Source: Vineibacter terrae
GTDB lineage: Bacteria; Pseudomonadota; Alphaproteobacteria; Reyranellales; Reyranellaceae
Assembly (NCBI RefSeq): GCF_008039615.1
Contig: NZ_VDUZ01000007.1
Coordinates: forward strand, 1 to 64,000
Direction: 5' to 3'
DNA: 64,000 nt
Positions 24,643 to 26,985 of this stretch are shown in pieces. Within the stretch, counting starts at the first letter, position 1. Each line of letters starts with the position of its first letter. The position numbers were made by a program, and so were the translations under genes. The notes under the pieces were generated by a model. The model was not told the origin of the DNA. It searched no databases and worked only from the letters and a program-made list of their open reading frames with translations.

Positions 24643-26850
24643 ATGTCGCTGTGGAACGAGCGCGCGGCCGCCGCGCGCGACATGCTTGCGAAGGTACGCC
24701 AGATCGAGGGTAGCGACGGCGTCACCCGCGAGGCGTTGGCCAAGATCGGCCAGGAGCTGGTCGGCCTGGCGACGCGCACGGAATTCTTTCCCCTCGAGCA
24801 GTTCCCGGTGCGGGCTGACGGCGGCATCTACCGCATCTCGGAAGATCCCGACCATCGCTTTGCGCTCTACGCCTCGGCCGGCGCGGAGGGCAAGCTGGTG
24901 CCGCCGCACAACCATACCACCTGGGCCTGCATCGCCGGCGTGCATGGCCAGGAGCACAATGTGCGCTACAGCCGCGTCGATGATGGCCGCAACGATCCCG
25001 AATACATTACCTTGGAGCGCGGCGGCGAGAGCACGATCGTCAGCGGCAACGTTATCGAGTATCTGCCGGATGACTTCCACACCATCCAGGTGCCGGCTGG
25101 CGGCGCGCCGGCGCTGCATCTGCATCTCTACGGCCTCAGCCTCGAGCATCTGCCGGACCGGGTGACGGTCGAGCAGGAGACCGGCCGTGCCAAGCGCTTC
25201 ATGGCCAAGCCCAGGATCCTGACGCCGCTCATCTCGGCTCAGGAGGTCAAGGCGGTCCTGGGCACCGACGCGGAGCTGGCGTTCTTCGACGCGCGCGAGG
25301 AGGGCGAGTTCAACGAGGGCCACCCGCTGTTCGCCACGCCCTTGCCGCTGTCGAAGCTCGAGCAGCGCGTGCGCGCGCTGCTGCCCAGCCCGGATGCCCG
25401 CATCGTGCTGATGGATAGCGGCGAGGAGGGTCAGATGGGCCGCGCCAACCGCGCCGCCGCCCGCCTGTCGCGCTGCGGCTACGGCAATGTCGCGGTCATG
25501 GATGGCGGGCTGAAGGCCTGGCGCGATGCCGGCTACGAAGTGTTCGGCGGCGTCAACGTGCCCAGCAAGGCCTTCGGCGAGGTGGTCGAGCATGACTGCG
25601 ACACGCCGCGCATCGAGGCGGCCGATCTGAAACAGCTGATCGACGAGGGCAAGGACCTGATCATCCTCGACAGCCGCCCGATGGACGAGTTCCGCAACAT
25701 GTCGATCCCCGGCGGCATCGACTGCCCCGGCGCCGAGCTGGTGTACCGCGTCAAGGATTTCGCGCCCAACCCGGAGACGCTGGTGGTGGTCAACTGCGCC
25801 GGCCGCACGCGCTCCATCATCGGCGCGCAGTCGCTGATCAACGCCGGTCTGCCCAACAAGGTGATTGCCTTGAAGAACGGCACCATGGGCTGGCACCTGG
25901 CCGGCCTGCAGGTGGCACGCGGGCGTCACGACACCTATCGCGGCCAGAGTCAGGCGGCGCTCGGCTGGGCCCGCGAGGCGGCTGCTCGTGTGGCCCAGAA
26001 GGCAGGCATACGTCCGATCCCGATGAGTGAGCTGCGGCGCATCGAGGCGGCCGCGGCCAGCGCCGGCGGCAGCGTCTACAAGCTCGACGTGCGCGATCCG
26101 GCCGAGTACGCCAAGGGGCACCTGATCGGGTTCCGGCATGCGCCGGGTGGTCAGCTGGTGCAGGCCACCGACCACTATGTCGGTGTGCGCAACGCCACGA
26201 TCGTGCTGCACGACAGTGACGGCGTGCGCGCCACCATGACGGCGCACTGGCTGGTGCAGATGGGCTGGCAGAAGGTCCATGTGCTTAAGCACCGGCCGCT
26301 GACGGACGAGATCGAGACCGGTCCCGAGCGCCGTCCGGTGCCTGGCCTCAATCGGGTCGCGGTCGCCACGATCGAGGCGCCGGAGCTGAAGGCGATGGTC
26401 GATGCCGGCGAGGTGCTGGTGGTCGACCTCGACACCTCTATCCGCCACCGGGATGGCCATGTCCCCGGTGCCTGGTTCGCGGTGCGCGCCGGCCTGGGCA
26501 AGACGTTGCCGGAGATGCTGGCGCAGACACCCGGTGCCAAGCAGGTTGTGCTGGTGTCACCCGACGGCGTGTCGGCACGGCTTGCCGCGGCTGATGTGGT
26601 CGAGGACGGTGCCACGACGCTGCCGGTCATGGTGCTGCAGGGCGGCATGCGCGCCTGGCGCGATTCGCGCCTGCCGATCGAGAAAGGCCAGAACCGCATG
26701 GCCGATCCGCCGACCGACGTCTGGTACCGGCCCTATGACCGCGCCGAAGGCGTCGAGGCGGCAATGAACCAGTACCTGACCTGGGAGGTCGACCTGGTCG
26801 GCCAGGTGCAGCGCGACGGCGATGCGCGCTTCAATGTGCTGAAGATGTAG
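24643..26850 (+). CDS. Cysteine dioxygenase-like cupin fused to four rhodanese domains
   Basis: A 735-residue protein. Residues 1-190 look like a cysteine dioxygenase-type cupin: H89-N-H91-T, then H146 in DDFHTIQVP, the iron-ligand pattern of cysteine dioxygenase. Four rhodanese-like domains follow, about 200-315, 325-435, 460-560 and 590-700. Only the second has a cysteine at the sulfur-transfer position (C385 in VVVNCAGRTRS); the others have Ser at S259, S525 and S639 (LMDSGEEG, LHDSDGVR, LVSPDGVS) and are probably structural or sulfur-binding. AAGGAGAC precedes the ATG. The likely role is sulfur or cysteine handling; the domain combination is inferred from the sequence and may be new. It converges on the MetX-like gene across repeat A, copy 2. 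Confidence 0.85.
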   Translation: MSLWNERAAAARDMLAKVRQIEGSDGVTREALAKIGQELVGLATRTEFFPLEQFPVRADGGIYRISEDPDHRFALYASAGAEGKLVPPHNHTTWACIAGVHGQEHNVRYSRVDDGRNDPEYITLERGGESTIVSGNVIEYLPDDFHTIQVPAGGAPALHLHLYGLSLEHLPDRVTVEQETGRAKRFMAKPRILTPLISAQEVKAVLGTDAELAFFDAREEGEFNEGHPLFATPLPLSKLEQRVRALLPSPDARIVLMDSGEEGQMGRANRAAARLSRCGYGNVAVMDGGLKAWRDAGYEVFGGVNVPSKAFGEVVEHDCDTPRIEAADLKQLIDEGKDLIILDSRPMDEFRNMSIPGGIDCPGAELVYRVKDFAPNPETLVVVNCAGRTRSIIGAQSLINAGLPNKVIALKNGTMGWHLAGLQVARGRHDTYRGQSQAALGWAREAAARVAQKAGIRPIPMSELRRIEAAAASAGGSVYKLDVRDPAEYAKGHLIGFRHAPGGQLVQATDHYVGVRNATIVLHDSDGVRATMTAHWLVQMGWQKVHVLKHRPLTDEIETGPERRPVPGLNRVAVATIEAPELKAMVDAGEVLVVDLDTSIRHRDGHVPGAWFAVRAGLGKTLPEMLAQTPGAKQVVLVSPDGVSARLAAADVVEDGATTLPVMVLQGGMRAWRDSRLPIEKGQNRMADPPTDVWYRPYDRAEGVEAAMNQYLTWEVDLVGQVQRDGDARFNVLKM

Positions 26851-26859
26851 CTCTCTTCC

Positions 26860-26985
26860 CTTCCCCACACTTGCGTGGGGAAGGTGGCCGAAGGCCGGAT
26901 GGGGAGCTCACGTGGTCCATGGAACTGAGACCACGTCGGCTCCCCTCCGCCCCTTCGGGGCACCTCCCCAACTTCGTTGGGGAGG
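26860..26985. repeat. Dispersed palindromic repeat, family A, copy 2
   Basis: About 126 bases, the inverted partner of the copy at 7111-7233: TTCCCCACACTTGCGTGGGG at the left, GGCCGAAGGCC, a GACCACGT core, and CCCCTTCGGGG and CTCCCCAACTTCGTTGGGGAG at the right. It again fills the space between two convergent 3' ends. Identity with copy 1 is high in the shared hairpin arms and lower in the middle. Confidence 0.8.

Follow-up and report, generated by a model that had tools for sequence, protein, structure and literature searches.

What kind of enzyme is made when a dioxygenase-type cupin and four rhodanese domains are joined in a single protein? The question is raised by a gene in the window, that is, the whole stretch of 64,000 nucleotides of the Vineibacter terrae genome analyzed here (Reyranellaceae; NZ_VDUZ01000007.1, positions 1 to 64,000). 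The gene is an intact open reading frame of the plus strand (24643–26850) that starts with ATG, with a Shine-Dalgarno-like AAGGAG just 5' of the start codon. Its translation of 735 amino acids comprises an N-terminal thiol-dioxygenase cupin and four rhodanese domains, and is conserved over the full length. The original prediction, made from the sequence alone, had postulated a cysteine dioxygenase-like cupin, one active and three inactive rhodanese domains, and a persulfide or cysteine pathway.

Domain architecture and predicted structure

A Pfam search detected the four anticipated rhodanese domains (PF00581, E 2e-45) and no match for the N-terminus of the protein; because a homolog of mercaptosuccinate dioxygenase (Msdo) that is 79% identical to PDB 8vni (L150) is likewise without a Pfam match, the missing match is normal for this branch of cupins. 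An assembly or gene-calling artefact is ruled out by the alignment of 81 distinct fused sequences from many records. The AlphaFold2 model of the fusion, built with an alignment of 65 homologs, is of high confidence (mean pLDDT 94.9, pTM 0.92) and the fusion is kept over many genera, beyond what chance would give. In a Foldseek search of the PDB, the top two matches to the model were 1yt8, the four-rhodanese protein PA2603 of Pseudomonas aeruginosa (TM-score by target 0.95), and 8vni (0.90), followed by structures of 3-mercaptopropionate dioxygenase (3MDO; ~0.75) and cysteine dioxygenase (CDO; ~0.7 for the mammalian enzyme), which identifies a thiol-dioxygenase fold in the cupin of the predicted model.

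The gap between the fusion gene and the convergent alpha/beta-hydrolase gene (26857–26985) contains two G+C-rich perfect palindromes, one at 26860 (CTTCCCCAC..GTGGGGAAG) and one at 26963 (CCTCCCCAAC..GTTGGGGAGG); they could be a terminator working in both directions or copies of a repeat dispersed among intergenic regions.

The cupin domain and its place among thiol dioxygenases

The cupin occupies residues 1–190 (24643–25212, plus strand, as all features of the protein given below). In a phmmer search, the N-terminal ~185 residues matched 8vni with E 2.6e-32, whereas the chains of CDO and 3MDO reached only E ~1e-3; in sequence and in predicted fold, the cupin is nearest to Msdo and not to cysteine dioxygenase. 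The three histidines singled out in the original prediction, H89 and H91 of the HNH motif (24907–24915) and H146 (codon CAC, 25078–25080), are indeed kept: they are invariant in all 81 fused sequences and align with the iron ligands in 28 of 28 sequences of the 3MDO type and 7 of 7 of the Msdo type. R173 (25159–25161) is invariant across all three groups of the cupin alignment (fused, 3MDO type, and Msdo type) and is the counterpart of Arg168, the residue by which Azotobacter 3MDO binds the carboxylate of its substrate (PMC8050391).

Other positions set the fusion apart. Position 62 (I62, 24826–24828; codon checked, as for the motifs above and below), which corresponds to the residue that tells Arg-type and Gln-type thiol dioxygenases apart (PMC8050391), is Ile or Val in the fusion, Arg in all 7 Msdo-type sequences, and Gln in all 28 of the 3MDO type. 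The counterpart of the Ser-His-Tyr motif is H159-x-H161-x-Y163 (25117–25131), an H-H-Y motif in which His replaces Ser, as in the Msdo type; the 3MDO-type sequences have Ser here (28 of 28). The fusion thus lacks both Gln-type features (Ile62 for Gln, His159 for Ser), and it falls outside Msdo by clade and by residue, with a clade of its own and no Arg at position 62, a residue that may be family-defining for Msdo. Ile62 also occupies the position of the carboxylate-binding Arg60 of CDO, as aligned by sequence rather than by superposed coordinates. Cys93 of mammalian CDO, the residue crosslinked to Tyr157, is absent, and Ala95 (Ala in 78 of 78 sequences) is found at the position aligned with Gly95 of Pa3MDO, the glycine that was changed to Cys in 4wvz to give an artificial crosslink. 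A dioxygenase-type cupin, then, was correctly recognized at the outset, but the cysteine dioxygenase label was too loose and is ruled out by the rank of the sequence matches together with these residues.

The fused domains group together in the Msdo half of the cupin tree, in one clade (SH-aLRT 85) apart from Msdo itself and far from 3MDO; judged from the sequences, the fusion cupin is a third, so far uncharacterized branch beside the 3MDO and Msdo types. Msdo-linked, fused, and 3MDO-linked proteins are set apart in the rhodanese tree as well, where several branches run long and the fused group is not strictly one clade; the partner groups in the two trees largely match. Genome G225 encodes the fusion together with an Msdo-type pair (79% identity of its cupin to 8vni), and genome G390 encodes the fusion together with a 3MDO-type pair; since each of these genomes holds two of the branches, the fusion, Msdo, and 3MDO branches probably act on different substrates.

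Two further cupins are encoded outside the window in the same genome (G000). One is a stand-alone cupin, 35% identical to the fused one (contig C7, 107206–107703; L161, 3180–3767), in which the HDH motif and the third His are conserved; its function may have changed, as Thr-x-Ala stands where the H-H-Y motif has His-x-His. The other (contig C31, 23850–24305; L162, 2740–3381) is a separate 3MDO/CDO-type thiol dioxygenase of the Gln type with Ser-His-Tyr, and the 7 kb around its gene showed no tetra-rhodanese.

The rhodanese body and its conserved cysteine

The tetra-rhodanese body comprises residues ~195–735, of which residues 200–733 match 1yt8 with E 1e-123. Its four domains, D1 (25219–25548), D2 (25600–25923), D3 (26008–26310), and D4 (26359–26685), are followed in the AlphaFold model by a conserved C-terminal helix (residues 704–725, 26752–26817) with a homologous stretch in 1yt8, so that the arrangement is of the PA2603 type, the active D2 loop included. 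At the cysteine position, the domains carry Asp258 (codon 25414–25416), Cys385 (25795–25797), Asp524 (26212–26214), and Ser639 (26557–26559), respectively. The motif of active rhodanese domains, Cx4R/T or Cx5R (PMC10135228), is present in D2 only (C385-AGRT-R390); all 128 sequences of the rhodanese alignment, PA2603 included, have C385 and an unchanged CAGRTR loop, and C385 is the only invariant Cys at the catalytic position among the four domains. The choice of C385 as the sulfur-carrying residue is therefore borne out, whereas the claim of Ser in the three other domains applies to D4 alone. The serines next to the aspartates, S259 in D1 and S525 in D3, lie one residue past the cysteine position and are variable.

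Among the 81 fused proteins, the cysteine position is Asp in all for D1, Asp in 79 for D3, and Ser in 71, Ala in 9, and Gly in 1 for D4, which identifies D1, D3, and D4 as inactive domains; such domains are generally regarded as interaction modules (PMC10135228). In the homologs, D4 has Cys in 20 of 20 3MDO-linked proteins and in PA2603, and Ala in 5 of 5 Msdo-linked ones. This match between D4 Cys and dioxygenase type is perfect at the clade level; because the pattern follows the clades, it is not independent evidence, and D4 Cys was rejected as an independent signal, as only 2 of the 5 independent pairs were informative and a sign test gave p 0.5.

Several variants of the rhodanese body were observed. 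Just two fused proteins, L091 and L104, have Cys at the catalytic position of D3. Upstream, both loci carry genes for peptide-type ABC permeases; in L104, the complete transporter is encoded directly upstream of the fusion. Shortened homologs in one family of the same class (f8; L153–L155) end after the third rhodanese domain, keep the D2 cysteine, and have no neighboring dioxygenase. The tetra-rhodaneses of genus g161 (L138–L141; genomes of ~2 Mb), nested among the 3MDO-linked ones, no longer have a dioxygenase next to them, and their D4 cysteine has been replaced by Ser.

Unfused gene pairs and distribution of the fusion

From a sample of 398 genomes of the phylum, 36 unfused four-domain homologs were examined, and in 25 of these loci a thiol-dioxygenase gene, of the 3MDO type in 20 cases and of the Msdo type in 5, is located directly upstream on the same strand; no adjacent dioxygenase was detected for the other 11 tetra-rhodanese genes. 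The gaps between the matched stretches of a pair span 11–333 bp, most within ~150 bp, with one exception where a lyase gene intervenes, and the order, dioxygenase followed by tetra-rhodanese, is the same as in the fusion. A cystathionine beta-lyase-like gene is found near 4 of the 5 Msdo-type pairs; Msdo-type clusters of Caballeronia and Aminobacter also contain cystathionine beta-lyase genes, and that of Caballeronia further encodes an amino-acid ABC transporter and a protein annotated as sulfite exporter TauE/SafE, which has only a weak score against the one NCBIfam model it matched. Such linkage is on record: 3mdo and tst form a transcription unit in P. protegens (PMC12947264), and the neighbors of msdo in Advenella and Variovorax include genes for a rhodanese and a cystathionine beta-lyase (PMC5373536). 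That the fused gene usually corresponds to two neighboring genes in related bacteria suggests that dioxygenase and tetra-rhodanese act in one step or pathway. These adjacent homologs back the thiol or persulfide pathway proposed originally, but cysteine as the substrate is not supported, Msdo being the nearest enzyme and Ile occupying the CDO Arg position.

In the order to which the window belongs (Reyranellaceae), 55 of the 56 genomes searched gave a match and one did not: 49, the window's own included, encode the full-length fusion, and 6 the tetra-rhodanese alone, 67–69% identical to that of the window. No close stand-alone copy of the fused cupin was found in these six genomes, and the cupin-less Reyranella proteins nest inside the fused clade of the rhodanese tree; most likely, therefore, the cupin was lost secondarily, and the rhodanese body can persist alone. 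Beyond Reyranellaceae, the fusion is present in Stella and in MAGs assigned to Nitrosomonadales and Burkholderiales (Alpha- and Betaproteobacteria), in V. paradoxus VAI-C, where it is annotated only as 'sulfurtransferase', and, by tblastn, on a Cupriavidus necator plasmid. Our literature search found no description of a cupin/tetra-rhodanese fusion and no biochemistry for any fused member.

In several cases outside Reyranellaceae, the setting of the fusion is one of organosulfur uptake and catabolism: a cystathionine beta-lyase gene lies directly downstream of Stella-type fusions, and in V. paradoxus VAI-C, the fusion overlaps an operon for an ABC transporter of the peptide/glutathione type, with a CysB-family regulator encoded nearby. 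The neighbors in the window encode a CoA-transferase III, an SLT transglycosylase, an alpha/beta hydrolase, and an aldo/keto reductase; as the neighbors in the window and in Reyranellaceae look housekeeping or unrelated, no pathway partner is evident locally. The family III CoA-transferase, conceivable as an activator of the sulfinate, was rejected given the intervening SLT transglycosylase gene and the opposite transcription.

Many Reyranella loci (L095, L098, L108, L113, and others) have a 3MDO-type gene ~2–4 kb upstream on the opposite strand, preceding either the fusion or the cupin-less tetra-rhodanese; where the gene order was read (L061 and others), a lytic transglycosylase gene lies between the two.

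Possible function of the fusion protein

The protein is probably bifunctional, combining two activities of organosulfur catabolism, those of a mercapto-acid dioxygenase and of a sulfane-sulfur transferase. From the architecture, conserved residues, predicted fold, gene linkage, and phylogenetic placement found for the fusion, we infer catalysis by both parts, the class of substrate, and the direction of sulfur flow. The cupin would be a mononuclear non-heme iron thiol dioxygenase that converts a small carboxylated thiol (R-SH) and O2 to R-sulfinate, with the thiolate on the three-His iron and the carboxylate on R173. The tetra-rhodanese body would carry sulfane sulfur as a persulfide on one cysteine, C385, the Asp/Asp/Ser domains D1, D3, and D4 being structural or pocket-forming, and the fusion would keep sulfane-sulfur handling and thiol oxidation together. 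In the preferred direction, C385 would strip the sulfane sulfur from R-S-SH, a product, for example, of mixed-disulfide cleavage by a C-S beta-lyase, and the freed R-SH would reach the iron site. This direction is favored because the tetra-rhodanese mostly accompanies 3MDO, whose product, 3-sulfinopropionate, is not known to shed sulfite without CoA activation, and because C-S lyases, through cystathionine-lyase chemistry on mixed disulfides, would yield persulfides. When tst was deleted in P. protegens, extracellular 3-MPA showed no significant change (PMC12947264). Substrate oxidation in that organism may thus proceed without the rhodanese partner, and the result is evidence against a strict need for the rhodanese in thiol oxidation. 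We propose only tentatively that the fusion constitutes a third thiol-dioxygenase specificity class, neither Arg- nor Gln-type, with an undescribed natural mercapto acid or its persulfide as the substrate and C385 passing sulfur to or from it within one polypeptide; the specificity residue of the fusion branch is that of neither Msdo nor 3MDO.

Sulfur might also flow in the other direction, a possibility to which we give limited credence: the unstable sulfinate would decay to sulfite, which the C385 persulfide would sulfurate to thiosulfate, preventing sulfite damage. Oxidation of mercaptosuccinate gives sulfinosuccinate, from which succinate and sulfite form spontaneously (PMC5373536), a reaction that suits the Msdo-type members, and human TST is far more efficient in converting sulfite and glutathione persulfide to thiosulfate than in the reverse reaction (PMC10135228). 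The TauE/SafE-annotated exporter gene that adjoins one Msdo-type cluster fits the same scheme. Nevertheless, the commonest partner (20 of 25 pairs) is of the 3MDO type, with 3-sulfinopropionate as the product (see above), and the fusion is without the Arg that is present in all 7 Msdo-type cupins.

It appears doubtful that the fusion merely fixes the co-expression of two sulfur enzymes that act separately. The fusion order is the operon order, so that joining by stop loss would be easy, and the cupin was apparently lost again in several Reyranellaceae, but retention across many genera and a full-length model of high confidence argue for more than that.

It is unlikely that the protein is simply an Msdo fused with its operon partner and acting on mercaptosuccinate. 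Cleavage of S-(2-succino)cysteine as a source of mercaptosuccinate, an idea of our own, was dropped because mercaptosuccinate is not mentioned in PMC9706529. Msdo is the closest solved structure and Stella-type loci share the rhodanese and lyase partners; yet, the fusion cupins form their own clade beside Msdo, with Ile or Val, not Arg, at position 62, and the presence of both the fusion and an Msdo-type pair in G225 suggests different roles. Known persulfide dioxygenases are of the metallo-beta-lactamase fold, unlike the fusion cupin, which is a thiol dioxygenase by its predicted fold and retains the residues of enzymes that act on carboxylated thiols. It is thus quite improbable that, in analogy to ETHE1-rhodanese, the cupin oxidizes a low-molecular persulfide to sulfite while the rhodanese exchanges sulfane sulfur, although fusions of persulfide dioxygenases with rhodanese domains do exist and embody the same combination of iron dioxygenase and rhodanese (PMC10135228).

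Comparison with known systems

If the tentative reading of a third specificity class is true, a single protein that handles sulfane sulfur and oxidizes thiols would explain why thiol dioxygenases travel with tetra-rhodaneses. The crystal structure of PA2603 has been available since 2005 (1yt8), and its gene lies beside that of a well-studied thiol dioxygenase; for the PA2602/PA2603-type pair, our literature search found no role and one mutant (P. protegens tst), with no clear phenotype. The fusion, being natural and conserved, allows the coupling to be probed within a single protein by two separable point mutants (H89A and C385S).

Among the known systems, Msdo (8vni), characterized in Variovorax paradoxus B4 and Advenella mimigardefordensis, is the nearest solved relative of the cupin and shares with it the cupin fold, the three His ligands, the HNHTTWA motif, the H-H-Y motif, and the conserved Arg (R173), as well as a rhodanese partner, encoded next to the Msdo gene; the fusion differs in the overall sequence (36% identity), the separate clade, the Ile/Val for Arg substitution, and the very fact of being fused. 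PA2603, a 'thiosulfate sulfurtransferase', shares the four rhodanese domains, the C-terminal helix, and an identical D2 loop, NCAGRTRS, at 44% identity, but has a second Cys loop in D4 (TCGSS), where the fusion has Ser, and is separate from the dioxygenase PA2602. The 3MDOs (PA2602 and the Azotobacter enzyme) have in common with the fusion the iron ligands, the motif Tyr, the Arg168 counterpart, and a tetra-rhodanese (tst) neighbor, and are distant from it in sequence, with Gln62 and the Ser of Ser-His-Tyr, both absent from the fusion. ETHE1-type persulfide dioxygenase-rhodanese fusions likewise join an iron dioxygenase to a rhodanese domain, but their dioxygenase fold is unrelated to the fusion cupin; the dioxygenase half of the fusion matches the cupins 8vni and 3MDO/CDO and contains no metallo-beta-lactamase domain. 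The ergothioneine synthase EanB, a rhodanese-like sulfurtransferase with a persulfide-forming Cys412, also appears in the fold search, although the overall TM-score is only 0.19–0.28 and EanB is without a cupin. The original statement that no named enzyme has this layout accordingly holds for the fusion, but not for its halves, which have named, solved homologs (8vni and 1yt8) and known neighbors: both halves and their side-by-side genes were known already, and what is new is the fusion itself and the uncharacterized dioxygenase branch to which its cupin belongs.
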